Assembly (NCBI RefSeq): GCF_004959855.1
Contig: NZ_SPNT01000001.1
Coordinates: 806,001-870,000, forward strand
DNA: 64,000 nucleotides
Reading direction: 5' to 3'
Origin: Nitratireductor sp. XY-223
GTDB lineage: Bacteria > Pseudomonadota > Alphaproteobacteria > Rhizobiales > Rhizobiaceae
The notes under the pieces were generated by a model that was not told where the DNA came from, searched no databases, and was given only the letters and a program-made list of their open reading frames with translations. The position numbers and the translations under genes are program-made. Of this stretch, positions 10,582 through 23,075 are shown in pieces (positions within the stretch are counted from its first letter, which is position 1; every line of letters begins with the position of its first letter).

Positions 10582-11040
10582 CTAGTTTGCCGGCGTGTCG
10601 CGAAATAGTACGACGCCATATTCGCAGGAAAGCGCCGCGCAATCCTTGGGCGTGATGCGGACGACGCGCCGGCCCGCGGCCTCGAGATCGAAGATGAAGT
10701 AGGTTGCGGAAAAATCGTCGGGCTTGGCATCGATCACGGTGCCGTCCCCGTCCACCAGCTCCGCCGACAGGCCGCTGCAATTGGCGCAGGCAACCGCTAC
10801 CTGGTAGTCGTCGGGTCCAAGCTCGCCCAGGTTCATGCTGCCGGTCCGGCCGGCATTGACCGTGCCGAAAGCGCCGCCGAGCTGGACGAGCCTGCGCCCG
10901 TACCGGGCGCCGACATCGTGCATCTGGGCCGCCATGATCTGCAGTTCCTTCAACAGTTCCTCGGACGGCTCCTGCGCGATGGCGGGACCGTTCACGAAAA
11001 TAATCGTCATGAGTGCCGCATGCAGCATCGGAATACGCAT
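10582..11040 (-). CDS. Exported protein of unknown function
   Basis: 152 residues from the ATG at 11040, which has a good ribosome-binding site (GGAGGTGGACCC); an upstream start at 11097 is in frame but less likely. A signal peptide ends near AIAQ. The mature protein is small, with cysteines in CANCSG and in KDCAALSC that could form two disulfides in the periplasm. I do not recognise the family. It is 108 bases upstream of psuK on the same strand and may be co-transcribed. Confidence 0.7.
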   Translation of the reverse strand: MRIPMLHAALMTIIFVNGPAIAQEPSEELLKELQIMAAQMHDVGARYGRRLVQLGGAFGTVNAGRTGSMNLGELGPDDYQVAVACANCSGLSAELVDGDGTVIDAKPDDFSATYFIFDLEAAGRRVVRITPKDCAALSCEYGVVLFRDTPAN

Positions 11041-11127
11041 CGGGTCCACCTCCTTCAGCCCGCGGCGCAGGTTAGCCTCCTTGCCGGGCCGGCACAATTT
11101 GCGGTTTCAACGCGCGCCATTGCTGTT

Positions 11128-12036
11128 TCAAGCGGCTTCTGGAAACCGCTTGGCCAGTTGCTCCCGCAAATACTCCGCCAGGCGCTGCGCCGACGTCGAA
11201 AGCGTTCCCGAGCTGCGCGATACCAGATGGAACGACCAGCGAAGCGCCGGCTCGAAGGCCAGGGCGCAGGTTCCCTCGATCGCCCGGGCTGCGACGATCT
11301 GGTCGACGATGCCGATGCCGACGCCGCTGGCGACGAGACCGGCAATGGCACTCTGGGTGCGCGCTTGAGCGCGGATTTTCACCGATAGTCCGGCGCGGGC
11401 CAGATGCTGGTCCAGGGCATATCGGAACGGGCTGCCCGTGTTCAGGGCTATGAACGGCTCGGACTGGATCGACGCCAGCTCGATCGGAAGGGTGCAGGCG
11501 GTACGCCAGCCCGCCGGCGCGATCAGCACCGAGCGGGTGGAAAGCTCGGCATGCACCGTATGGGTCTTGTCGCGCACGCCCGAGACCAACGCCAGGTCGA
11601 CGTTTCCGGCTTCGAGCAGGGTCAGCGCCCGGTGGGTGTCAGCGACCTCCAGGGTGATTTCGACGAACGGATTGTCGCGCATGAAGCGGCCGAGCATTGC
11701 CGGCAACAGATATTCCGAGACCACCGGAATGGCGACGATGCGCACATGCCCGCGCCTGGCGTTGCGGATCGCTTCGGCCGATTCCTGCAGGTTTGAGATG
11801 ATCGGCAGGGCCGAGGCGACGTCGCCGAAGAACACCTGGCCGTCCTCGGTCAGCTCCAGCCGCCGGCCGATCTTGCGAAACAGCGTCAGATTGGTCCAGG
11901 CCTCCAGCGATTTCAGCAGGTGGCTGATCGCCGGCTGGGTGACGTTGAGGTGCTCCGCTGCGGCGGCCACCGAGCCCAGCGTGACGACCGCGTGGAAGGC
12001 GTGAATGGCCCGAAGGCTGAGACGGTCATTCAACAT
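11128..12036 (-). CDS. cuyR: LysR-family regulator, candidate CuyR
   Basis: 302 residues. The N-terminal winged helix (LSLRAIHAFHAVVTLGSV, then AAEHLNVTQPAISHLLKSLE, residues 6-46) is followed by a type 2 periplasmic-binding-like effector domain. It is divergent from the sulfite-exporter/sulfo-lyase operon with 74 bases between the start codons, the usual LysR arrangement. The order LysR, TauE-like permease, PLP lyase matches the cuyRZA order I recall from cysteate-degrading bacteria, so the name is an inference from context. It probably activates the rightward operon and represses itself, using the inverted repeat at 12045-12065. Confidence 0.85.
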   Translation of the reverse strand: MLNDRLSLRAIHAFHAVVTLGSVAAAAEHLNVTQPAISHLLKSLEAWTNLTLFRKIGRRLELTEDGQVFFGDVASALPIISNLQESAEAIRNARRGHVRIVAIPVVSEYLLPAMLGRFMRDNPFVEITLEVADTHRALTLLEAGNVDLALVSGVRDKTHTVHAELSTRSVLIAPAGWRTACTLPIELASIQSEPFIALNTGSPFRYALDQHLARAGLSVKIRAQARTQSAIAGLVASGVGIGIVDQIVAARAIEGTCALAFEPALRWSFHLVSRSSGTLSTSAQRLAEYLREQLAKRFPEAA

Positions 12037-12044
12037 TACATTAG

Positions 12045-12065
12045 GTTCTTTAATATATTAAGAAC
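12045..12065. promoter_or_regulatory. Inverted repeat, candidate LysR operator
   Basis: GTTCTT (12045-12050) and AAGAAC (12060-12065) face each other across an AT-rich 9-base centre, in the gap between the divergent LysR gene and the exporter gene. Size and location suit a LysR-type binding site. This is a visual call only. Confidence 0.45.
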
Positions 12066-12110
12066 AAAAAAGTCAATTGTTTTATCGGACGGGCGTCCTA
12101 AGCTGACGGC

Positions 12111-12884
12111 ATGTGGACTTTCGAGCTGACAGAGTTGCCCGTTACCGAATTCGGCCTGGCTTTCGGTCTGGTACTGCTGGGCTCCTCCCTGCAGGTGGCG
12201 ACCGGCGTCGGGCTTGGCCTGATTGCCGGGCCATCGCTGCTGCTCTTTCTGGACAGTGCGGCGGCGATACAGACGGCCATCATTCTCAACCTGGTGCTGA
12301 CGGCCTGCCTGCTGCCGACGGAACTGCGCGACGTTGCCGGACGGCCGCTGGCGCATATGTGCCTGTGGGCCTGCATCGGCATTCCGGTTGGCACGGTTCT
12401 GCTGCTGATGGCGGATTCGACCAGCTTGAAGATCGCCAGCGGCCTGGTGGTGTTGCTTGCTGTGGTCCAATTGCGCTTCTTTCCGGCGCCGCAGGCGGTA
12501 GGTCCGGGGTCTCACTCATGGGTGGTCCGAGTCGGCGGTACGGTGTCGGGCGGCATGACAGGCGCCCTGGCGGTGCCGGGTCCCATCGCGCTGTGGACGC
12601 TGCTGAGCAGCGGGCTCAATCCGGCCGCCGTGCGCGCTACGCTGCGCGCCTATTTCTTCATCGCCTATACCGTGGCGCTGCTCATTCATCTGCTGATGAC
12701 GCAACGCGGGGAAGGCAGCTTCAGCCTCAGCCTGGTGTTGCTGCCCGCCGTCGCCATCGGCATCGGGCTGGGCCAGGCAGGGCGCAACGCCATCGGGTCG
12801 GATCGCCTGCGCCTGCTTCTCGAGGTCGTCCTTGTGATCATGGGAATTTCATTGCTGAGCAGGGGACTCCTCGATGCCGTCTGA
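12111..12884 (+). CDS. cuyZ: TauE/SafE-family membrane transporter, candidate sulfite exporter CuyZ
   Basis: 257 residues, almost wholly hydrophobic, with about seven to eight membrane segments and the two-repeat layout of the TauE/SafE (old DUF81) family. Members next to sulfonate-cleaving enzymes are thought to export sulfite. Its 3' end overlaps the start of the cuyA-like gene by 11 bases (12874-12884), so the two are translationally coupled. The substrate assignment is an inference from that coupling; TauE-family proteins also occur with other anions. Confidence 0.8.
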   Translation: MWTFELTELPVTEFGLAFGLVLLGSSLQVATGVGLGLIAGPSLLLFLDSAAAIQTAIILNLVLTACLLPTELRDVAGRPLAHMCLWACIGIPVGTVLLLMADSTSLKIASGLVVLLAVVQLRFFPAPQAVGPGSHSWVVRVGGTVSGGMTGALAVPGPIALWTLLSSGLNPAAVRATLRAYFFIAYTVALLIHLLMTQRGEGSFSLSLVLLPAVAIGIGLGQAGRNAIGSDRLRLLLEVVLVIMGISLLSRGLLDAV

Positions 12885-13965
12885 TCGCCTAGCCGATATC
12901 GAGCTGCTACCGGAACTCGGCCGGCACCCGCGCGTCGATCTGGGTCTGATACGCTCCGGCCTCGACCCGCTGCGACGGCTTGGCGACAGCCTCGGTATCA
13001 CGCTCTACGCCAAGCGCGACGATACCCAGCCGCTTGCGATGGGCGGCAACAAGACACGACAACTGGAGTATTATTTGGGCCTGGGTGCCGAGCAGGGCTG
13101 CGACACGGTGCTGATCACCGGCGCAGTCCAATCGAATTTCGTCCGCTCCACCACCGCCGCGGCCCGGCGTCTGGGCTGGCATGCGCTGGTGCAGCTGGAG
13201 GACCGCGTGCCGAAAAACGACCCGGTTTACGCCGCGTCAGGCAATGTCCTTCTCAGCCAGCTGCTGGGTGCCGAGATCCACCGCTTTCCCGAAGGCGAGA
13301 ACGAGGCAGGCGCCGATGCCAATCTCGATCGTCTGGCAGAGCAATGCGAGCAACGTGGCCGCAAGCCATACGTCATCCATCTCGGCATGGACAGTCAGCC
13401 GATCGGCGCCCTGGGCTACGTCTATGCAGCCCTCGAAACCTGGCGACAATTCCAGGATCTCGGTACAATGCCTGATTATGTGGTGATCCCCTCGGGCAGC
13501 GGATTGACCCATGGCGGTTTTCTGGTCGGCGCCCGTGCCATCGGCTGGGATGTACCGGTCCACGGCATTTGTGTGCGCCGCGCCGCCGAACTGCAATCCG
13601 TGCGGATCGCCACAAGGGCTGCCGAAATCAACGCCATGCTCGACAATCGGGCGACGCTGACACCGCAGGACATCCTGGTTGACGACACGACGCTGGCGCC
13701 CGGCTACGGCCGGATCAACGACGCGGTTTCGTCGGCCATCCGCCGCGCCGCGCGGGACGAGGCTCTGCTGCTCGATCCCGTCTACAGCGGCCGCACCATG
13801 GCGGGCCTGATTTCGCTTGTCGAGCGCGGCTTGATCGAGCCCGGCGCCTCCGTTGCCTTCATTCACACCGGAGGTACTCCGGCGATCTTCGCCTACCAGA
13901 ACGATCTGGTGCCGGAGGGAAGCGAAAACGGCGAAGTGCTGCCGCAGGGCAGCGTCGCAGTATGA
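12874..13965 (+). CDS. cuyA: PLP-dependent D-cysteine desulfhydrase/L-cysteate sulfo-lyase family (CuyA-like)
   Basis: 363 residues of the ACC-deaminase/D-cysteine desulfhydrase branch of fold II PLP enzymes. The PLP lysine is K60 in MGGNKTRQLE; GAVQSNFVRST forms the substrate/phosphate loop and the C-terminal FIHTGGTPAIFAY is the family signature. L-cysteate sulfo-lyase (CuyA) splits cysteate to pyruvate, ammonia and sulfite, while relatives act on D-cysteine. The overlap with a sulfite-exporter-type gene and the nearby LysR favour a sulfonate-type substrate, but sequence alone does not separate the activities. It lies upstream of the TRAP transporter, 35 bases from the TAXI gene. Confidence 0.82.
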   Translation: MPSDRLADIELLPELGRHPRVDLGLIRSGLDPLRRLGDSLGITLYAKRDDTQPLAMGGNKTRQLEYYLGLGAEQGCDTVLITGAVQSNFVRSTTAAARRLGWHALVQLEDRVPKNDPVYAASGNVLLSQLLGAEIHRFPEGENEAGADANLDRLAEQCEQRGRKPYVIHLGMDSQPIGALGYVYAALETWRQFQDLGTMPDYVVIPSGSGLTHGGFLVGARAIGWDVPVHGICVRRAAELQSVRIATRAAEINAMLDNRATLTPQDILVDDTTLAPGYGRINDAVSSAIRRAARDEALLLDPVYSGRTMAGLISLVERGLIEPGASVAFIHTGGTPAIFAYQNDLVPEGSENGEVLPQGSVAV

Positions 13966-14000
13966 ACCGCATGACTGTTGGATGAAATGGGAGGATCCAG

Positions 14001-14975
14001 ATGAAAACGTCCATCAATCGCCATCTTGGCAACCTTGCCTTTGCCGGAGCCCTGTTGCTGACGGGTGCCGCGACGGCGGCCGAACAGCAATTCGTGTCGA
14101 TCGGCACGGGCGGCGTCACCGGCGTTTACTATCCGACCGGCGGCGCCATCTGCCGGCTGGTCAACAAGGATCGCAAGGAGCACGGAATCCGTTGCTCAGC
14201 TGAATCGACCGGCGGATCGATTTACAACATCAACACCATTCGCGGCGGCGAACTGGAATTCGGTGTCGCCCAGTCGGACTGGCAGTACCACGCCTATAAC
14301 GGCACCTCGAAATTCGAGGACCAGGGCAAGTTCGACAAGCTGAGGTCGATCTTCTCGGTACACCCCGAGCCGGTCACCGTGATCGCGCATTCCAACACCG
14401 GCGCCGAGAACATCACCGACCTGAAGGGCATGCGATTGAACATCGGCAATCCAGGTTCAGGCACCCGCGGCACCTGGGAGGTGCTGGAAGGGGCGCTCGG
14501 CTGGGACCGCAGCGACTTGAAGCTGGCAGCCGAAATGAAGTCGGCCGAAACCGGCCAGGCGGTCTGCGACGGCAAGATTGACGCCTATTTCTGGCTTGTC
14601 GGCCACCCGTCCGCGCTGACCCAGGAATCGCTCGCCACCTGTGACGCGCGCCTGGTCAACGTGACCGGCGAGGCCATCGACAAGCTGGTCGCTGACAACC
14701 CATATTACCGCAAGGCAAAGATTCCTGCCGGCATGTACAACAATGCCGAGGACATCGACACCTTCGGCGTGGGCGCCACCTTCGTCACCAGCACCGACGT
14801 GCCGGACGAGGTCGTCTACACGGTCGTGAAGGCCGTGTTCGACAATTTCGACCAGTTCAAGAAGCTGCACCCTGCCTTCGCCAATCTCAGCGAGCAGGAG
14901 ATGATCACCGACTCCCTGTCGGCGCCGCTGCATGACGGCGCGGTCAAATACTACAAGGAACGCGGCTGGATGTAG
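14001..14975 (+). CDS. TAXI-family TRAP transporter solute-binding protein
   Basis: 324 residues with a signal peptide cut near ATAAEQ. The mature N-terminus has the TAXI hallmark [15 protein letters not shown], followed by [11 protein letters not shown] and [13 protein letters not shown]. It should capture an organic acid or amino-acid-like ligand in the periplasm and hand it to the fused permease downstream. A clear ribosome-binding site (GGGAGGATCC) precedes the ATG. Its place straight after the cuyA-like gene suggests the ligand is the substrate of this island, possibly a sulfonated or sulfinated acid (inference). Confidence 0.93.
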
Positions 14976-15057
14976 CCGTCCGACCTGCCGGGGGCAGTGA
15001 GCACCCCGCGGCGGCCCGAGAGGAGACGGGTCACCGCGGGGTCGAAGGGGGGAGGAG

Positions 15058-17673
15058 ATGACCGAAAAGCACGCCGCAATTCACGAGGCTGACGACCTCG
15101 TAGCCCAGGTCGATACCGGGGCCCGACATCCGGCCGACTGGCAACGCAACCTGATACCGGTGACCGCCTTCGTCTGGGCGCTGTTCCAACTCTATATCGC
15201 CTCCAACCTGCCGTTTTACCTGACTGACGTGACCGGCATAAGCGTCATAGTCACCAATTCAAACGCCCGGCTGATCCACCTGGCCTTCGCCATGTTCCTG
15301 GCGGCCATGGCATTCCCGCTTTTCCGCGCCTCGCCGCGCGACCGCATACCGCTCTATGACTGGCTGCTCGGGCTGCTGGGCGTAGCGGCCTGCCTCTACA
15401 TTCTCGTCTTCCGCAACGAAATCGCGGACCGGGCCGGCCTGCCGACGACGTCCGACCTGGTCATGTCGTCCATCGGCATGGTCGTGCTGGCGATCTCCGT
15501 CTACCGGGCGCTCGGCCTGCCGCTGGTTATCGTCGCCATGGTCTTCATCGCCTATGTATTCTTCGGCCACAGCGACTTCCTGCCCGATGTCGTCCAGTGG
15601 AAGGGCGCGTCCTTCGGCAAGGCCATGTGGCACTATTGGATGCAGAACGAGGGCGTGTTCGGCGTGGCGCTCGGCGTCTCGGCCACGCTGATCTTCCTGT
15701 TCGTGCTGTTTGGCTCCATTCTCGAAAAGGCGGGCGCCGGCAATTACTTTATAAAGATCGCCTTCGCCCTGCTCGGCCACCTGCGCGGCGGCCCGGCCAA
15801 GGCCGCCGTCGTCGCTTCGGCGCTGAGCGGGCTCTATTCCGGTTCGTCCATCGCGAACACGGTGACGACCGGTACCTTCACCATCCCGCTTATGAAGCGC
15901 ACCGGCTTCCCGCCGGAAAAGGCCGGCGCTGTCGAGGTCGCCTCGTCGACCAACGGCCAGCTCACCCCGCCCGTCATGGGTGCTGCGGCCTTCCTGATCT
16001 CCGAATTCACCGGCATCAGCTACACCGAGATCATCAAGCATGCTTTGGTGCCGGCTTTGGTCTCCTATATCGCGCTCTTCTACATCGTCCACCTGGAGGC
16101 TCGGAAGCTCGACCTCAGGGGCCTGCCGAAACCGCCGTCGTCGATCAACTTCGCCGGCAAACTGATGGGTTTCCTCGCTGGCTTTATCGGAATCTCGGTA
16201 CTCGGTATTATCGTCTATTACGGCATGGGCTGGATAAAGGTCGCCATTCCGGGCGCCGCCTTCACGGTGGTCGTCCTGGGGAGCGCCGCGACCTATCTCG
16301 TGCTGCTGTGGTTGGCGTCGCGGCACCCGGACCTCGAAGTCGACCCGCCGGATGCGCCGATCACCGAGCTGCCGCGCGCCGGCGCCACGGCGATCACCGG
16401 CCTCTACTACATTCTCCCGATCGTTATCCTGATCTGGTGCATCATGATCGAGCGGCTGTCGCCGGCGCTGTCGGCCTTCTGGGCGACCATCGCCATGATC
16501 ACCGTGGCGCTGACACAGCACCCGATCAAGGCGATCATGCGCGGCAATGCCGATGTCGGTGCGGCGGCGCGGCGCGGCGTTTCCGAATGGGTCGACGGCA
16601 TGATTGCCGGCTCGCGCAACATGATCGGCATCGGCGTCGCCACGGGCGCTGCCGGCATCATCGTCGGTACCATCTCGCTGACCGGCGCACACCAGGTGGT
16701 CGGTGAGTTTGTCGAGTTCCTGTCCGGCGGTCATCTGCTGCTGATGCTGGTCCTTGTGGCGATCATGAGCCTGATCCTCGGCATGGGCCTGCCGACGACT
16801 GCGAACTACATCGTCGTGTCGTCGCTGATGGCGCCGGTGATCGTCGCACTCGGCGCCAAGAGCGGACTGATCGTGCCGCTGATCGCGGTGCATCTGTTCG
16901 TCTTCTACTTCGGCATTCTCGCCGACGACACACCGCCGGTCGGGCTCGCCGCCTTCGCTGCCGCCGCGATATCGCGAGCCGACCCGATAAAGACGGGCAT
17001 TCAGGGCTTTGCCTACGATATCCGCACGGCGCTGCTGCCTTTCCTCTTTATTTTCAATACCGAACTGTTGCTCATCGACGTATCGCCCCTCAAGGGCGTG
17101 TTCGTCTTCGTCACGGCGGTGATCGCCATGCTGTTATTTGCAGCAGCGACGCAGGGCTTCTTCCTGACACGCAACCGCATCTGGGAGACGGCCGCTCTGC
17201 TTGTCGTGGCGTTCACCCTGTTCAGGCCCGGCTTCTGGCTGGATCAGATCGACCCGCCCTATATCGACCGTCCAGGGGCGGAGATCCACCAGGTGGTGGG
17301 AGCGCAACCAGCTGACTCCCAACTGCGCGCTTCCATCTCCGGGCCTGATTTCAACGATCCCGACAAGCGTATCGAGACCACCATCGTCGTGCCCCTCGCC
17401 GCTGTCGGTGACGGTGAGGCACGTCTTGAAGAAAGCGGCATCCTGGTCATGGTCGACAATGGCCAGGCTGTGCTCGAGGAACCGTTCCCCGGAACGCCTT
17501 TCGAAAGCCTTGGACGGGAGTTCGACTTCTACGCCGACGATCCGGTCACCGTCAGCATGGTGCAGGTCGCCAAGCAGCGGAGGCCCAAGGAGTTGTTCTA
17601 CATACCGGCGCTGCTGGTGCTGGTCGTCATCGTAATTCTGCAGCGCGGCCGCGCGGCAAGGGAGGTCTCGTGA
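15058..17673 (+). CDS. Fused TRAP transporter permease (DctQM type) with DUF3394-like C-terminal domain
   Basis: 871 residues. Membrane segments over roughly residues 30-200 correspond to the small (4TM, DctQ) subunit and those over 200-700 to the large (12TM, DctM) subunit; the latter contains SGLYSGSSIANTVTTG, LTPPVMGAAAF and GMGLPTTANYI. After the last core helices a soluble stretch (about 735-850) resembles DUF3394 domains found at the end of TAXI-TRAP permeases, and a final hydrophobic helix closes the protein. It uses the ion gradient for uptake. GGGGGAGGAG is the ribosome-binding site. Its TGA stop overlaps the next gene's ATG. Confidence 0.93.
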   Translation: MTEKHAAIHEADDLVAQVDTGARHPADWQRNLIPVTAFVWALFQLYIASNLPFYLTDVTGISVIVTNSNARLIHLAFAMFLAAMAFPLFRASPRDRIPLYDWLLGLLGVAACLYILVFRNEIADRAGLPTTSDLVMSSIGMVVLAISVYRALGLPLVIVAMVFIAYVFFGHSDFLPDVVQWKGASFGKAMWHYWMQNEGVFGVALGVSATLIFLFVLFGSILEKAGAGNYFIKIAFALLGHLRGGPAKAAVVASALSGLYSGSSIANTVTTGTFTIPLMKRTGFPPEKAGAVEVASSTNGQLTPPVMGAAAFLISEFTGISYTEIIKHALVPALVSYIALFYIVHLEARKLDLRGLPKPPSSINFAGKLMGFLAGFIGISVLGIIVYYGMGWIKVAIPGAAFTVVVLGSAATYLVLLWLASRHPDLEVDPPDAPITELPRAGATAITGLYYILPIVILIWCIMIERLSPALSAFWATIAMITVALTQHPIKAIMRGNADVGAAARRGVSEWVDGMIAGSRNMIGIGVATGAAGIIVGTISLTGAHQVVGEFVEFLSGGHLLLMLVLVAIMSLILGMGLPTTANYIVVSSLMAPVIVALGAKSGLIVPLIAVHLFVFYFGILADDTPPVGLAAFAAAAISRADPIKTGIQGFAYDIRTALLPFLFIFNTELLLIDVSPLKGVFVFVTAVIAMLLFAAATQGFFLTRNRIWETAALLVVAFTLFRPGFWLDQIDPPYIDRPGAEIHQVVGAQPADSQLRASISGPDFNDPDKRIETTIVVPLAAVGDGEARLEESGILVMVDNGQAVLEEPFPGTPFESLGREFDFYADDPVTVSMVQVAKQRRPKELFYIPALLVLVVIVILQRGRAAREVS

Positions 17674-18110
17674 TGGGCGATGGTACTTTCAAGTCGATCC
17701 TGCTGCCGATCGACCTGGCGTCGGAACCGAGCTGGAAGCGTCCGCTGAATCTGGCGCTGGAACTGGCGGTCGGCGGCGCCATGCTGCACGTTATGACGGT
17801 TGTACCCGATTTCGGCATGTCGATCGTCGGATCCTATTTCGACGAGGGCTTCGAAAAGAATGCCCTCGATGACGTTGCGAAGCAGCTCGAGGCCTGGACT
17901 GCGGACCATGTTCCCGACGGTGTGGACCATCGCATTCACGTTGCGCACGGAACCATTTATGCGGAGATCCTGCGGGTGGCGGACGAGCTGCAATGCGATG
18001 CCATCGTCATGGCTGCCCACCGGCCGGAGTTGAAGGACTATCTGCTTGGTCCCAACGCCGCGCGCGTCATGCGCCACGCTGGACAGTCTGTCCTGGTCGT
18101 TCGAGATTAA
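17673..18110 (+). CDS. UspA-family universal stress protein, TRAP-associated (TeaD-like)
   Basis: 145 residues from the ATG at 17673; a GTG one codon earlier is in frame, but the GGGAGG site is better spaced for the ATG. It has the Usp alpha/beta fold with the family's nucleotide-loop region near the end (AAHRPELKDYLLGPNAARVMRHAGQSVLVV). In Halomonas the Usp protein TeaD is encoded with the TRAP system TeaABC and modulates its activity; a similar role is likely here. The last 44 bases overlap the 3' end of the convergent CoA-transferase gene. Confidence 0.88.
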   Translation: MGDGTFKSILLPIDLASEPSWKRPLNLALELAVGGAMLHVMTVVPDFGMSIVGSYFDEGFEKNALDDVAKQLEAWTADHVPDGVDHRIHVAHGTIYAEILRVADELQCDAIVMAAHRPELKDYLLGPNAARVMRHAGQSVLVVRD

Positions 18111-19281
18111 GCTGGTCGTCCGTCAGAACCTCGTCCGTGTCGGCGCCCATGACAGGCGGCGCGCGGCGATAGGTCACCGGCGTCTTCGACAGTTTGAGAG
18201 GATTGCCGATCAGCGACACCCGGCCGTCCGCGGCTGCCGCGGTGTCCATGTCGATCCGCATGTCACGGGCCGCCACCTGGTCGGAGGAAAACACCCGGTC
18301 GAGCGTATTGACCGGTCCTGCCGGAACCTTCAGGGCCTCAAGGCCGGCAATCACCGTGTCGGTGGCTCTCGCTCGCAGGATCTCCTGCACGATGGGGATC
18401 AGCTCCGCCCGGTTCTCGAGTCGCGCCGGGTTGGTGGAAAACCGCGGGTCCGTGGCCAGTTCCGGCCGGCCCAGCCAACCGGCGAAGCGTTCGAACTGCG
18501 CATCGTTGCCGACGGCGACGGTGACGTGGCCGTCGGCGGTTTCGAACACCTGGTAGGGGGCGATATTGGGATGGCCGTTGCCACGCCGCTGCGGCACGGC
18601 GTCAGTGGTCAGGAAGTTGACACCCTCGTTGATCAGCCAGGCGATCTGGCTGTCCACCAGCGCCAGGTCGATGTGCTGGCCTTCGCCGGTGCGGTTGCTG
18701 TGGCGCAGCGCCGCCAGGATGCCGACCGCCGCGTACATGCCGCACATGACATCGGCAATACCGACGCCGACCTTCATCGGCTCGCCGTCGGGCGCGCCGG
18801 TCAGGCTCATGATGCCGCCATAGCCCTGCGCCATCAGGTCGTAGCCGGGCTTGGAGGCGTTGGGCCCGGTCTGGCCGAAGCCGGAGATCGAGCAATAGAC
18901 CAGATGCGGGAAGTCGCGCAGCATGGTGTCGTGGTCGAGGCCGTATTTGGCCAGCGACCCCGGCTTGAAATTCTCGATCAGCACGTCGGCCGAGGCCGCA
19001 AGCGCGCGCACGGCCTGCTGCCCCTCAGGATTGCTGATATCGAGCGCGACGGACTTCTTGTTGCGGTTGGCGCTCATGAAATAGGCGCTGAGACCGGTTC
19101 GTTCGCCGTCAGGGCCGTTGACGAAGGGCGGCCCCCAGGTACGGGTATCGTCGCCTCCGGTCTTGGGGTTTTCGACCTTGATCACTTCGGCCCCGAGATC
19201 GCCCAGCAGTTGGGTACAGGTCGGGCCGGCGAGAATGCGGCTGAGATCGAGGATGACGAGCCCATCCAATGCACCTGCCAT
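18067..19281 (-). CDS. Family III CoA-transferase (CaiB/BaiF)
   Basis: 404 residues from the ATG at 19281; a GTG three codons earlier is too close to the AGGGAG site. The family III catalytic aspartate is D148 in KPGYDLMAQG, with NPKTGGDDTRTW and LIENFKPGSL as further family landmarks. It should activate a free acid by moving CoA from a donor such as succinyl-CoA. Last gene of the leftward operon after the dehydrogenase-like and ThDP genes. In 3-sulfinopropionate degraders, as I recall, a family III transferase (Act) activates the sulfino acid for the desulfinase (Acd). Formyl-CoA transferase-like activity is an alternative. Confidence 0.9.
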   Translation of the reverse strand: MAGALDGLVILDLSRILAGPTCTQLLGDLGAEVIKVENPKTGGDDTRTWGPPFVNGPDGERTGLSAYFMSANRNKKSVALDISNPEGQQAVRALAASADVLIENFKPGSLAKYGLDHDTMLRDFPHLVYCSISGFGQTGPNASKPGYDLMAQGYGGIMSLTGAPDGEPMKVGVGIADVMCGMYAAVGILAALRHSNRTGEGQHIDLALVDSQIAWLINEGVNFLTTDAVPQRRGNGHPNIAPYQVFETADGHVTVAVGNDAQFERFAGWLGRPELATDPRFSTNPARLENRAELIPIVQEILRARATDTVIAGLEALKVPAGPVNTLDRVFSSDQVAARDMRIDMDTAAAADGRVSLIGNPLKLSKTPVTYRRAPPVMGADTDEVLTDDQLNLERPGQTVQRGA

Positions 19282-19293
19282 GATGGTCACTCC

Positions 19294-20913
19294 CTAAATG
19301 CGTCCGTCATAGGATTGCGGGTCGATGACCGCCGCGATGACTGAGAACCGGTCTGCCCCCAGCGCCTCGACCAGGGCCTGGTGCAGTTCCCTTCGGCTGG
19401 TCACGGTGTGCCCGTATCCGCCGAACGCCCGGCCGATGGCTGCGAAATCGTGGCTGCCGAAATCGACGCCAGCGTTGCCCAGTTGCCGCTGCCGCTGCTT
19501 CAGCTCGATCAGCGCCAGGCTGGAATCGACAAAAACGACGAAGATGGCGCGGCTGCCGAGTTCGGCCGCCGTCGACAGTTCGCCGGCGACCATGAGCATG
19601 CCGGCGTCGCCGGAAAATGATACGACCGGTCGCTCCGGATCGGCATGTTTGACCCCGATCGCCAATGGTACGGCGCATCCCATCGTGCAAAACGCCGTGG
19701 ACTGCAGCAGGCTGCGCGGCTCGTAGCACGTCCACATCTGCGACAACAGAATGCGGTGAGCGCCGGAATCCACGGTGGCGATGGTGTCGCGCGGCAGCGT
19801 ACGCCGGCATTCGTCGACGATAGCCGCCGGCCCCCAGTCGCCGTCGCTTGGAAAATTCCCGGCCAGCCGTGCTTTCGCCGTCTCGATTTCGCCGTTTGCC
19901 CAGGTCTCTCCCGCCGCGACGCCCGCCTGCAACGCCGCGAGCGTCGCTCCGGCATCGCTGACGAAATGCAGTGATGCCTGGTGCATGTAGTGATGGTTCG
20001 GCCCGGCGGTGATGTCGACGACATTGACCTTTGCCGGGTCCCAGACTTCGCGCCAGCCGGTACGCATCTCGATCGGATCGTAGCCGACGCACAGGATGAG
20101 ATCGGCTGACTGAACGAACGGGATCAGCGTTCTGTCGGCGAGTGGTGACAGGCCTGCGCCGCCGAGGCACAGTGGATGGTTCTCGGGAACGATTCCCTTG
20201 GCCTTGTAGGTGGTCACCAGCGGCACGCGGTAGTTTTCGGCAAAGGCCCGGACGGCGTCGCCGGCCTCGTCCTTCAGCGCATCGAGCCCGACAATCATCA
20301 CCGGTCGTCTGGCGCGGCGCAACCACTCTCTGGCGCGGTCGAGGTCAGGGCCCTCGGCGGGCGCCGTGGGCGAGGCGGCTGCCCGCCGGCGTGGCCGCAC
20401 GGCACCCGGCTTCGCATCGGCGACCGAGATCGGAACGTCGATATGCACCGGCCCGGCGCGGCCTTCCGTCGCCATGCCGACCGCTTTGTCGGCAATGGTG
20501 TCGGCGCCTTCGGCCGTCAGCATGAACGTCGCCCGGGTGATCGGCGCGAACACCGCCTGGTGGTCGAGGATCTGATGCGTGTAGGTCAGTGCCTCGTCGG
20601 CATCGACACAGCCGGTCAGCACGATCAGCGGCACCCGGTCCTGTTCCGCATTGGCGACGACGTTGACGCCGTTGAGCGCCCCCGGTCCGACGGTCGCGAC
20701 CAGGATGCCCGGCGCGCCGGTACGGTGGTGCACACCCTCGGCCATGAAGCCGGCATTGTTCTCGTGCTTGGCGAGCACGAAGTCGATGCCCGCCTTCCGC
20801 AGAGCGTCGACGATGGTCAGCACCTCGCCGCCCGGCATGCCGAAGGCATGGCGGCAACCGGCCTCGTAAAGCCGCCGCGCCAGCAGGTCGGCGGCGCGCA
20901 GATCGCCCGTCAT
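19294..20913 (-). CDS. ThDP-dependent enzyme, acetolactate-synthase-like
   Basis: 539 residues with the three-domain layout of this superfamily. E51 (KHENNAGFMAEG) is the cofactor-activating glutamate; GPGALNGVNVVANA and GPVHIDVPI follow. The C-terminal cofactor motif is unusual: GDA (in SFSGDAGML) replaces the common GDG, and VDSSLALI stands where N-N is normal. It may decarboxylate a 2-oxo acid or join/cleave an acyl-CoA; the reaction is not deducible. Its start overlaps the stop of the dehydrogenase-like gene by ATGA, and 12 bases separate its stop from the CoA-transferase ATG, so the three proteins are made together. Confidence 0.85.
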   Translation of the reverse strand: MTGDLRAADLLARRLYEAGCRHAFGMPGGEVLTIVDALRKAGIDFVLAKHENNAGFMAEGVHHRTGAPGILVATVGPGALNGVNVVANAEQDRVPLIVLTGCVDADEALTYTHQILDHQAVFAPITRATFMLTAEGADTIADKAVGMATEGRAGPVHIDVPISVADAKPGAVRPRRRAAASPTAPAEGPDLDRAREWLRRARRPVMIVGLDALKDEAGDAVRAFAENYRVPLVTTYKAKGIVPENHPLCLGGAGLSPLADRTLIPFVQSADLILCVGYDPIEMRTGWREVWDPAKVNVVDITAGPNHHYMHQASLHFVSDAGATLAALQAGVAAGETWANGEIETAKARLAGNFPSDGDWGPAAIVDECRRTLPRDTIATVDSGAHRILLSQMWTCYEPRSLLQSTAFCTMGCAVPLAIGVKHADPERPVVSFSGDAGMLMVAGELSTAAELGSRAIFVVFVDSSLALIELKQRQRQLGNAGVDFGSHDFAAIGRAFGGYGHTVTSRRELHQALVEALGADRFSVIAAVIDPQSYDGRI

Positions 20914-22118
20914 GATGTCGTCCCCGCGTTCCGCGCATGGCCGTTGCGGGTCTGTGGCGTCTTGATCCCCAGGAGGTTGCCGGCGACCTGGGTGCGCAGG
21001 ATCTGCGCCGTGCCGCCGCCGATGGTGAACATGCGCACGTCGCGATACATGCGCTCCAGCGGCTCCCTGTCGCCGTACCCGCGAGCGCCGAATATCTGCA
21101 GTGCGTCGCTGACCACCTTGATCGCCGCTTCCGAGGCGAACAGTTTCGCCCGTGCCGCCATGGTCATGTCGGGGAACGGGCTGCCGTGCGGCCCGCGCGA
21201 GCGCGCCGCTTCGTGCAGCATCAGTCGCGAGGCATGGACCGCGGTGTCCATGTCTGCGAGCATCCATTGCAGGCCCTGGAACTCAGCCAGCGGCCGGCCG
21301 AACTGCTGGCGCTCGAGCAGATATCGCCGGGCGTGGTCGAGCGCCCCCGCCGCGACCCCCATCGCCACCGCGCCGGCGCCGACGCGTTGGCTGTTATAGG
21401 CATTCATCAGATCGGCGAAGCCGCGCCGGAATCCGGAGGGCGGCACCAGCGCCATTGTCTCATCGACCTCCAGGCCGTCAAACGCCAGCTCGGCCTCGGG
21501 CATGCCGCACAGCCCCATTGTCCGTTCGCGGCGCACGATCTCGAAACCCTTCGGCTCGATGCCGCGTTCGGGATCGCGGAGCACGATGAAGCCGCCGATG
21601 CCGCGTTCGCGATCGTCCTCGTCCACGACCCGCGCGAAGATCAAATGCAGCCTCGAAATTCCGCCGCCGGTAATCCAGTGCTTTCGGCCGGTGATGCGAT
21701 AGGTCGAGCCGACCTTGCGCGCCGTCGTCGTCATTTCCGTGGCGGCGCTGCCGGCCTCCGGCTCCGTGATGCAGATCGCCGGCTTGTCGCCGGAGAGCAC
21801 AATGGGTGCGCAGAAGGCTTTCTGGTCCTTGGTACCATAGGCCATGATGGCGCTGATCGCGCCCATATTGGCCTCCACCACGATGCGTGCCGAAAGCGTG
21901 CAGGCCTTGGCGACCTCCTCGATCGCCAGCACCGCATCGTGGAACGATGCGCCCTGGCCGCCATACTCGCGGGGCAGGGTCATTCCCATCAGCCCGGCCT
22001 CGGTCAGGTCGATGACATTGTCCCAGCAATAGCTGCGTTTCTTGTCCCAATGGTCGGCACGCGGTGCAAATTTAACGGCCAATTCACGGGCTCTTTCCTG
22101 GAATGGGTTGGTGGTCAT
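20910..22118 (-). CDS. Acyl-CoA-dehydrogenase-fold protein lacking catalytic glutamates; candidate sulfino-acyl-CoA desulfinase
   Basis: 402 residues with all landmarks of the flavin acyl-CoA dehydrogenase fold (PREYGGQG, ITEPEAGSAATEM, GRKHWITGG, QQFGRPLAEFQ, QIFGARGYGD). The usual catalytic base just before G-T-(A/S)-Q is glycine (G368 in IGGGTAQIL), and the alternative position used by isovaleryl-CoA dehydrogenase is glutamine (Q244 in NSQRVGAG). That pair, Gln and Gly, is what was reported for 3-sulfinopropionyl-CoA desulfinase of Advenella, which shows no dehydrogenase activity and relies on an arginine; R78 is a possible counterpart. AAAGGAGG precedes the ATG. First gene of its operon, divergent from a LysR gene. 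Confidence 0.85.
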   Translation of the reverse strand: MTTNPFQERARELAVKFAPRADHWDKKRSYCWDNVIDLTEAGLMGMTLPREYGGQGASFHDAVLAIEEVAKACTLSARIVVEANMGAISAIMAYGTKDQKAFCAPIVLSGDKPAICITEPEAGSAATEMTTTARKVGSTYRITGRKHWITGGGISRLHLIFARVVDEDDRERGIGGFIVLRDPERGIEPKGFEIVRRERTMGLCGMPEAELAFDGLEVDETMALVPPSGFRRGFADLMNAYNSQRVGAGAVAMGVAAGALDHARRYLLERQQFGRPLAEFQGLQWMLADMDTAVHASRLMLHEAARSRGPHGSPFPDMTMAARAKLFASEAAIKVVSDALQIFGARGYGDREPLERMYRDVRMFTIGGGTAQILRTQVAGNLLGIKTPQTRNGHARNAGTTS

Positions 22119-22185
22119 CGAGGCCTCCTTTGGCGGGATGACAACCATCCTAAAGCGTATTAAATTCACCACAATCGAATAAATA

Positions 22186-22195
22186 TTGATATCAA
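22186..22195. promoter_or_regulatory. Palindrome, candidate LysR operator
   Basis: TTGATATCAA is a perfect 10-bp palindrome 19 bases before the LysR ATG, inside the 96-base gap between the divergent LysR and dehydrogenase-like genes. It fits an A/T-bounded LysR core site. The region around it is the most AT-rich of the island. Confidence 0.4.
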
Positions 22196-22214
22196 ATACA
22201 GGATTTATTGATTT

Positions 22215-23075
22215 ATGCAGACCAGATCGTTGCGAACGCTGGCGAAAATCGCCCGGATCGGATCCTTCGCCGCGACGGCGGAGCAGCTCAACATGACACT
22301 GTCGGCGGTCTCCATGCAGATGAAAACGCTGGAGCGCGACCTCGATGTGGCGCTGTTCGACCGATCCTTCCGGCCGCCGAAACTGACGCCACAGGGTCGT
22401 GCCATCGCTGGCCGCGCCGAACGACTGCTTACCGCCGAGGACGAACTGCTGCAGTTGTGCAGTCCCGGCAACCAACTGGTCGGCCGTTTCCGTATCGGCT
22501 TCATCGCCACGGCAAGCGTTCGCTTGCTGCCGGATTTCCTGCGCCATGCCGGCATCCGGGCGCCGCGGGCCCGTTTCGATCTCGAAACCGGATTGTCGGA
22601 AGCGCTGGAGGAAAAGGTCCTTGGCGGTCAGCTCGACGCGGCCGTCGTCACGGCTTCCGGCAAACCTGACCCGCAGCTTGACTATCTGACCTTGCGCGTC
22701 GAACCCCTGGTCTATGCCCTGCCGGCGGCGGCCCGGGACCGGCCGCTTGACGACCTTGTCGAAGAGATGCCGTTTCTGCATTTCGCGCCGGGCACCGGCA
22801 TCGGCAAGCTGATCGCCGCCTATATCGGCCGTCCCGATGGCCTGCGCCCACGAAACACCATCGTGCTCGACGGCGTCGAGGCCATCGTGGAATGTGTCAA
22901 ATCGGGCCTCGGCCTGACACTGTTGCCCGCTGCCGATATCGGTCGATACGCCGATGAGCGGCTCGCCACGCGGACGCCGCAGGGCCTCGAACCGACACGG
23001 AAAATCGTGCTGGCGACGCTGAAAGGCAGCGCCGCCCATGGCAGGCGGGCTCTGCTTGAGGCGCTGTTTCGCTGA
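22215..23075 (+). CDS. LysR-family regulator of the leftward CoA operon
   Basis: 286 residues. Winged helix at the N-terminus (RSLRTLAKIARIGSF, then AAEQLNMTLSAVSMQMKTLE, residues 4-41), effector domain from about 90 onward. It is divergent from the desulfinase-like/ThDP/CoA-transferase operon, which it most likely controls through the palindrome at 22186-22195. It differs clearly from the other LysR protein at 11128, so the island has two independent regulators. The short recognition helix uses the unusual LSAVSMQ in place of the common QPAVS. Confidence 0.9.
   Translation: MQTRSLRTLAKIARIGSFAATAEQLNMTLSAVSMQMKTLERDLDVALFDRSFRPPKLTPQGRAIAGRAERLLTAEDELLQLCSPGNQLVGRFRIGFIATASVRLLPDFLRHAGIRAPRARFDLETGLSEALEEKVLGGQLDAAVVTASGKPDPQLDYLTLRVEPLVYALPAAARDRPLDDLVEEMPFLHFAPGTGIGKLIAAYIGRPDGLRPRNTIVLDGVEAIVECVKSGLGLTLLPAADIGRYADERLATRTPQGLEPTRKIVLATLKGSAAHGRRALLEALFR

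Follow-up and report, generated by a model that had tools for sequence, protein, structure and literature searches.

A modular organosulfur unit in Nitratireductor sp. XY-223 with two predicted sulfite-releasing arms and a putative 2-oxoacid decarboxylase

Do two sulfur-related operons that meet end to end in the genome of Nitratireductor sp. XY-223 form one unit, and what might an enzyme dependent on thiamine diphosphate (ThDP) do within it? The question is raised by positions 11128-23075 of the window, the window being the whole stretch of 64,000 nucleotides analysed (contig NZ_SPNT01000001.1, positions 806,001 to 870,000), where ten genes were confirmed, with a LysR gene at each outer end and two convergent operons between them. 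These genes are a recurring and modular organosulfur unit, and the grouping goes beyond chance because relatives carry large parts of the same arrangement. With a probability of roughly 0.4, the locus can be read as an accessory island serving the breakdown of sulfur amino acids, in which two parallel sulfite-releasing arms would have uptake and export in common, with a putative ThDP step and a putative substrate. The module looks accessory because the window's ThDP gene was found in none of the seven congeners sampled (G001-G007, E 1e-100).

The layout given in the original prediction, i.e. outer divergent LysR genes, convergent operons and a 44-base overlap, was borne out in all coordinates. 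The rightward operon runs from the TauE-type exporter through the lyase dependent on pyridoxal phosphate (PLP), the TAXI solute-binding protein and the fused permease of the tripartite ATP-independent periplasmic (TRAP) type to the universal stress protein (Usp), and the leftward operon from the desulfinase through the ThDP enzyme to the CoA-transferase, with intergenic spacings of -11 to +82 bases inside either operon. The desulfinase gene starts at 22118 and overlaps the ThDP gene by 4 bases, so the leftward operon is tight; the Usp and CoA-transferase genes overlap stop to stop over the 44 bases 18067-18110. Each of the ten proteins exceeds the Pfam gathering score for its named family. The features are as follows.

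11128..12036, minus strand: LysR1 (Pfam HTH_1 and LysR_substrate), divergent from the rightward operon, in a CuyR-like position
12111..12884, plus strand: TauE/SafE-type exporter (PF01925, 75.9 bits against 32.6; no NCBIfam model matched)
12874..13965, plus strand: PLP enzyme of the CuyA / D-cysteine desulfhydrase family (NF052482, CuyA, 308.2 bits, under the cut-off of 450)
14001..14975, plus strand: TAXI TRAP solute-binding protein (TIGR02122, 340.8 against 84; best PDB match 8s4j)
15058..17673, plus strand: fused TRAP permease with a DUF3394 tail (TIGR02123, 618.6 against 320.7; PF11874)
17670..18110, plus strand: Usp (PF00582)
18067..19290, minus strand: family III CoA-transferase (PF02515, 436.6 bits)
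19294..20913, minus strand: ThDP enzyme, acetolactate-synthase fold (Pfam TPP_enzyme N, M and C)
20910..22118, minus strand: predicted 3-sulfinopropanoyl-CoA desulfinase, acyl-CoA dehydrogenase fold (NF042439, 651.8 against 600)
22172..22183, plus strand: candidate LysR2 operator CAATCGAATNAA, 31 bases ahead of the LysR2 start
22215..23075, plus strand: LysR2 (Pfam), divergent from the desulfinase operon

Evidence that the two halves belong together comes from loci (L numbers) in other genomes (G numbers), with an order sample of 297 genomes and a phylum sample of 398 among the sets searched. Locus L187 (G151) carries on one strand relatives of LysR (32%), TAXI (81%), TRAP (63%), Usp (52%), CoA-transferase (59%), desulfinase (60%) and the ThDP enzyme (53%); on the strength of this tandem order the overlap was discarded as a regulatory device, and the overlapping centre looks ordinary. 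The desulfinase, ThDP and CoA-transferase genes are found together with TAXI-TRAP in L051, with TAXI in L054 and with the PLP lyase in L045. LysR1-TauE-PLP-TAXI stands in the window's order in L261, up to the contig end, and is repeated, with TRAP following, in L277. PLP lyase and desulfinase were both present in 16/297 genomes against 3.1 expected (hypergeometric p 1e-10 without correction for kinship, 0.004 when counted by family on the assumption of 53 families). The halves thus do co-occur in relatives, contrary to the refuting condition set in the original prediction, and a single unit that holds the desulfinase, the CoA-transferase, import by TAXI-TRAP and an exporter of TauE type is supported. 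The two sulfur routes, which the original prediction placed in one unit, are better taken as parallel arms, since the PLP lyase and the CoA route would each release sulfite and so cannot be steps of one line.

In the leftward operon the acyl-CoA-dehydrogenase-fold protein, which passes its curated cut-off, is predicted to be a 3-sulfinopropanoyl-CoA desulfinase. The closest solved relative is 5AF7, for which the marks of a desulfinase are reportedly the presence of Arg84 and, in place of a catalytic Glu/Asp, Gln at 246 and Gly at 366; we take these three positions to be the relevant ones. The window's R78, Q244 and G368 correspond to R84, Q246 and G366, and the marks are kept in 49/49, 49/49 and 48/48 rows respectively of a table comprising 5AF7, the window and 47 loci, one row being truncated. 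Seven paralogues were found in the window's own genome; four of them were compared, and none has all three. The desulfinase was detected in 37/297 order-sample genomes (E 1e-140), 35 of them over the cut-off, and in 7/398 phylum-sample genomes. Neighbourhoods were covered for 36 of the 37 (G106 left out), several of them on short contigs such as L178, L193 and L200; with the window included, the ThDP gene was seen in 17, the CoA-transferase in 12, TAXI in 3 and the PLP lyase in 2, and the idea that the desulfinase is always accompanied by this ThDP enzyme was discarded on the count of 17/36. The CoA-transferase had seven NCBIfam matches, all matched equivalogs falling under their cut-offs (best succinate-glutarate CoA-transferase, 466 against 750), and it forms a supported clade with those of L097 (Labrenzia) and L177.

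The desulfinase was also met in other settings. In L199:8776-15753, L202:8675-14842 and L203:8730-13997 it adjoins LysR2-like, Xsc and Pta-like genes without a CoA-transferase (Pta judged by eye, Xsc profile-scanned in L202), which suggests that the enzyme has a part in a taurine-type route. At L036:13752-14956, on Parasedimentitalea marina plasmid pW43B, the desulfinase beside the ThDP gene is broken over more than one frame and missing from the listed annotation. A protein without a Pfam match adjoins desulfinase and ThDP enzyme in L049:10731-12119, L185:10282-11760 and L188:12219-13607, and is 31-33% alike to a TPR-annotated protein of glucan clusters.

The ThDP enzyme has an acetolactate-synthase fold and is proposed to be a 2-oxoacid decarboxylase. 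None of the 25 NCBIfam matches listed of 55 reached its cut-off (best 351.8 against 509), and identity with Xsc was discarded, the best score of any model being 351.8 against the TIGR03457 cut-off of 676; the true Xsc in L202 scores 961. The predicted structure (mean pLDDT 90.4) matches acetolactate synthases with a TM of ~0.59 and a root-mean-square deviation of 16 A, so the domain packing of the model is unreliable. AlsS (4rjj), at ~29% identity, has in common with it the fold, the catalytic Glu, the His-Gln pair and an Asp at both cofactor-metal positions, residues whose roles in AlsS are presumed here. In the pocket, K40, A402 and Q424 of AlsS are replaced by E30, R387 and C409, which are invariant in the family (110/110, 111/111 and 111/111 rows). 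Among three own ThDP paralogues only L010 has R and C at the R387 and C409 columns, and its alignment is poor because of a gap at the catalytic Glu. The window's enzyme falls in a supported tree set of 11 rows, 9 of which (window included) are desulfinase-linked; L177 and L097 are the closest relatives of both the ThDP enzyme and the CoA-transferase on trees subsampled to keep one in four of the non-desulfinase loci among L100-L176. ThDP relatives (E 1e-3 or better) are encoded in at least 561 stretches with the signature peptide, and the CoA-transferase accompanies 71 of the best 80 of these that were named, the desulfinase 6 of them.

A possible route was built from the genes that join the ThDP enzyme elsewhere. 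L097 and L177 carry, in one run of genes and in this order, desulfinase, ThDP enzyme, a YeiH-like protein (PF03601; under the NCBIfam cut-off in L097, 99 against 233), aminotransferase, CoA-transferase and succinate-semialdehyde dehydrogenase (SSADH). The aminotransferase of L037, L097 and L177 is Pfam class I and II, with aspartate transaminase as best NCBIfam match, under cut-off. The SSADH subfamily cut-off of 646 is exceeded by the dehydrogenases of L097 (717), L177 (713) and L145 (714), whereas the one on the Cupriavidus necator plasmid misses it (606). A set of 113 ThDP loci was compared, comprising loci of 5000 bases or more other than the window and holding repeats of one place (L040/L153; L104/L105 nearly identical). 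The aminotransferase (>=45%) occurs in 6/26 desulfinase-linked ThDP loci against 0/87 others, and SSADH (>=48%) in 4/26 against 0/87. Taken in order, the linked enzymes would convert an amino acid to the CoA ester of an acid one carbon shorter, and working back from 3-sulfinopropionyl-CoA leads to homocysteine sulfinate.

In the proposed scheme, the glutamate-binder-type TAXI-TRAP would import analogues of acidic amino acids that bear a sulfonate or sulfinate group. In one arm the CuyA-like PLP lyase would convert a cysteate-type substrate to pyruvate, ammonia and sulfite. In the other, an aminotransferase would act on a sulfinate amino acid resembling glutamate, of which L-homocysteine sulfinate is the likeliest, and form 2-oxo-4-sulfinobutyrate, which the ThDP enzyme would decarboxylate to 3-sulfinopropanal. 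An SSADH-type dehydrogenase would then yield 3-sulfinopropionate, a step for which there is published chemistry as well as the gene linkage in relatives; the family III CoA-transferase would form 3-sulfinopropionyl-CoA and the desulfinase would split this to propionyl-CoA and sulfite, both steps being known for homologues elsewhere. TauE would export the sulfite from both arms, uptake and export being common to them, and LysR1 and LysR2 would govern the two arms. Since 3-sulfinopyruvate loses sulfite on its own, cysteine sulfinate was set aside as the substrate of the second arm. If true, the route would be a sulfur mirror image of that from glutamate through 2-oxoglutarate, succinate semialdehyde and succinate to succinyl-CoA. 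L-homocysteine sulfinate (L-HCSA) is described as a glutamate analogue, and a commercial GABase mix (gamma-aminobutyrate (GABA) transaminase plus SSADH) converts its decarboxylation product, homohypotaurine, to 3-sulfinopropionic acid (PMC11396700).

A further cluster with these enzymes was seen on Cupriavidus necator N-1 plasmid pBB1 (L037:1417-19389), where CoA-transferase, desulfinase, aminotransferase, ThDP enzyme, aldehyde dehydrogenase (ALDH) and TauE lie with three TctC genes, an FAD-linked oxidase and an M20 peptidase; such a set hints at feed compounds of the N-acylated or hydroxy-acid kind.

In the rightward operon the PLP enzyme is the genome's sole CuyA match at E 1e-20 and is nearest to CuyA, yet it stays under the curated cut-off, so that a lyase first put forward as CuyA-type is only a CuyA-like homologue. 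CuyA-type linkage is present, with both LysR1 and TauE adjoining the lyase. The lyase was found in 25/297 order-sample genomes (E 1e-90), and in 7 of the 20 loci examined, from 19 genomes, it adjoins a TauE of 29-56% identity to that of the window. The presence of TauE beside the lyase favours release of sulfite over sulfide; the enzyme is a probable sulfite-releasing beta-lyase and the TauE/SafE-type protein probably exports sulfite.

The best solved match of the TAXI protein, 8s4j, is tied to the glutamate-specific VcGluP of Vibrio cholerae, in which Tyr45 and Gln93 are decisive (PMC11574862). The window's protein keeps the VcGluP residues Y45, S75, Q93 and E125 and differs at S40 (G), D157 (T), Y200 (W) and M201 (L), and is predicted from these residues to be of glutamate-binder type with an altered pocket rim. 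This T/W/L pocket occurs in 6 of the 7 TAXIs linked to PLP lyase or desulfinase (window, L051, L054, L187, L206 within L261 and L232 within L276). The VcGluP/VcGluQM system also has a TAXI protein and a permease with a C-terminal extension, apparently comparable to the window's DUF3394 tail, but lacks the four substitutions and the sulfur gene setting. A TAXI-TRAP for glutamate is reported from Cereibacter sphaeroides as well (rsp_1412/1413; PMC12632250). The same genome has a second TAXI-TRAP-Usp set with a Q/F/T pocket (L310:6136-9992, G000:C55), a natural control for the module's TAXI. Usp had been counted as part of the sulfur unit; it lies 3' of TRAP in L187, L276, L286, L287 and the genome's own paralogous set L310, and since it often accompanies TAXI-TRAP elsewhere (L286, L287, L289, L299, L310) it is probably accessory to the transporter.

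Both regulators recur with their operons. LysR1 relatives are divergent from TauE-PLP-TAXI in L261 (44%) and L277 (33%), and LysR2 relatives of 45-58% are divergent from the desulfinase in 14 other loci. The candidate operator CAATCGAATNAA, chosen after inspection of the same loci, is kept at >=9/11 letters in 14/15 loci with a LysR2 of >=45%, window included and eleven duplicate loci excluded; it lies 31 bases from LysR2 in 8 of those 14 and 23-41 in the others, and L104 keeps only 7 letters. It reaches 9 letters in 2/6 loci with a more distant LysR2, no better than 1/10 shuffles, and is also common to L199, L202 and L203, the loci with desulfinase, Xsc and Pta-like genes.

Two described systems resemble the halves of the module. 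The act-acd-mdo genes (PMC5373536, PMC6370202) and cuyRZA (PMC4334477) have been described separately, and CuyA acts on D-cysteate (PMC11382572). The act-acd(-mdo) loci of Advenella mimigardefordensis DPN7 and Variovorax paradoxus TBEA6 contain, like the window, a family III CoA-transferase and a desulfinase, together with a LysR gene in Advenella; the window differs in having no match to an Mdo-type dioxygenase, in the ThDP gene standing directly between desulfinase and CoA-transferase, and in its linked TAXI-TRAP and TauE, and window relatives add aminotransferase and SSADH. The cuyRZA genes of Ruegeria pomeroyi likewise combine a LysR gene, a TauE-type exporter and a PLP lyase of the same family, whereas in the window the lyase is under the CuyA cut-off, TAXI-TRAP-Usp are in the operon and a desulfinase operon converges on it. 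The claim that the joining of a ThDP enzyme to all of these was new is weakened, since the putative acetolactate synthase IlvX, a possible relative of the window's enzyme, is in print near act, acdA and mdo in V. paradoxus TBEA6 (PMC6370202). Literature searches, with most subscription papers outside them, showed no pathway in which an aminotransferase, a ThDP enzyme and an SSADH are combined with CoA-transferase and desulfinase, and no bacterial homocysteine sulfinate route; a separate one on desulfonation of homocysteic acid gave no papers. No established route by which bacteria degrade homocysteine sulfinate is known to us. It is a tentative possibility that some marine Rhodobacteraceae (Planktomarina, Leisingera) and Labrenzia have a new C4 sulfinate amino acid pathway, consisting of a modified glutamate-type TAXI-TRAP, transamination, a 2-oxo-4-sulfinobutyrate decarboxylase of a new ThDP family, SSADH-type oxidation, CoA transfer and desulfination. 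If marine and other bacteria share a conserved and regulated gene set that fits this route, organosulfur cycling would gain a further entry, and a function would be assigned to a family of ThDP enzymes for which the libraries searched name no activity.

Several observations weigh against the reading of two sulfite-releasing arms. No such ThDP gene adjoins the desulfinase in 19/36 loci, some on short contigs, and 66/113 ThDP loci contain the ThDP-CoA-transferase pair with OpgC/TPR and without desulfinase. The ThDP pocket residues are the same in the desulfinase and periplasmic-glucan settings, an argument for a single substrate without sulfur, such as 2-oxoglutarate. The aminotransferase is absent from 20/26 desulfinase-linked ThDP loci, and weaker ALDH matches (33-36%, under threshold) occur in 3/87 non-desulfinase loci (L114, L116, L171). 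The window's own module contains neither an aminotransferase nor an SSADH gene, homologues (51% and 65% respectively) being found elsewhere in its genome. One of the seven linked TAXIs, L230 (within L277), has a Q/H/T pocket, and T/W/L is also seen in TAXIs that have no visible tie to either arm; it therefore marks a clade and does not prove a sulfur substrate. In V. paradoxus, deletion of ilvX left growth on 3,3'-thiodipropionate (TDP) unchanged (PMC6370202).

Some of these points lead to the view that the ThDP-CoA-transferase pair is a general cassette that makes an acyl-CoA from 2-oxoglutarate or a different 2-oxoacid free of sulfur. In glucan clusters the acyl-CoA would be a donor for OpgC; here only desulfinase and PLP lyase would be sulfur enzymes, with the pair joined to them for convenience. 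This view is unlikely on balance, although 79/113 ThDP loci have the OpgC/TPR setting, E30, R284, R387 and C409 are invariant in both settings, and supported branches of the ThDP tree force at least 6 changes of desulfinase label. Set against it are the clustering of desulfinase-linked rows on that tree (10 changes against 19.1 with shuffled labels) and the fact that, at the thresholds set, aminotransferase and SSADH join the pair only beside desulfinase. In marine Rhodobacteraceae (L100-L176, e.g. L136:9439-20257) a pair closely akin to that of the window belongs to a cluster of the order DUF302-ThDP-CoAT-TPR-OpgC-MdoG-MdoH-esterase-rhodanese; OpgC_C, MdoG and MdoH were confirmed beside the pair in the one locus scanned, L136, which fits a general cassette.

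Quite improbable is a pathway for 3-mercaptopropionate, TDP or dithiodipropionate as in Advenella or Variovorax, in which a thiol dioxygenase would supply 3-sulfinopropionate for CoA-activation and desulfination. There is no dioxygenase among the module's ten genes, and no match to CDO_I (PF05995), which we take to be the family of the 3-mercaptopropionate dioxygenase Mdo, in the genome (98.7% complete), the same search giving matches in 1/14 control genomes. The known Mdo entry to 3-sulfinopropionate thus seems missing and was discarded, despite the LysR-act-acd-mdo order in Advenella (PMC5373536) and the greater abundance on TDP and 3-sulfinopropionate of the putative acetolactate synthase encoded near these genes in Variovorax (PMC6370202). 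Very unlikely, too, is a start from an amine (the GABA analogue homohypotaurine) or from 3-sulfinopropionate imported by TRAP, with the ThDP enzyme serving another purpose. The GABase conversion of homohypotaurine to 3-sulfinopropionic acid would provide for it, and the desulfinase loci L198 and L309 show, of these genes, just LysR2 and desulfinase. The TAXI pocket, however, retains its alpha-amino-acid contacts, and the aminotransferase beside the ThDP gene in L037, L097 and L177 is class I/II, which is not the class expected for an amine substrate. We consider it just as doubtful that two unrelated operons adjoin by chance in this genome: the right half lacks a nearby desulfinase in L261 and L277, TAXI is absent from 33/36 desulfinase loci and the sampled congeners lack the ThDP gene, but the one-strand order of L187, the joining of right-half genes to the left half in L051, L054 and L045, and the co-occurrence of lyase and desulfinase speak against chance.

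Outside the module, a 171-codon open frame without a Pfam match lies at window positions 10582-11097, between LysR1 and a PfkB-type gene. The flank on that side holds Indigoidine_A (8591) and PfkB (9535) family genes, presumably psuG/psuK-like, and the other flank recA (24317) and a gene of the alanyl-tRNA-synthetase type (25491).

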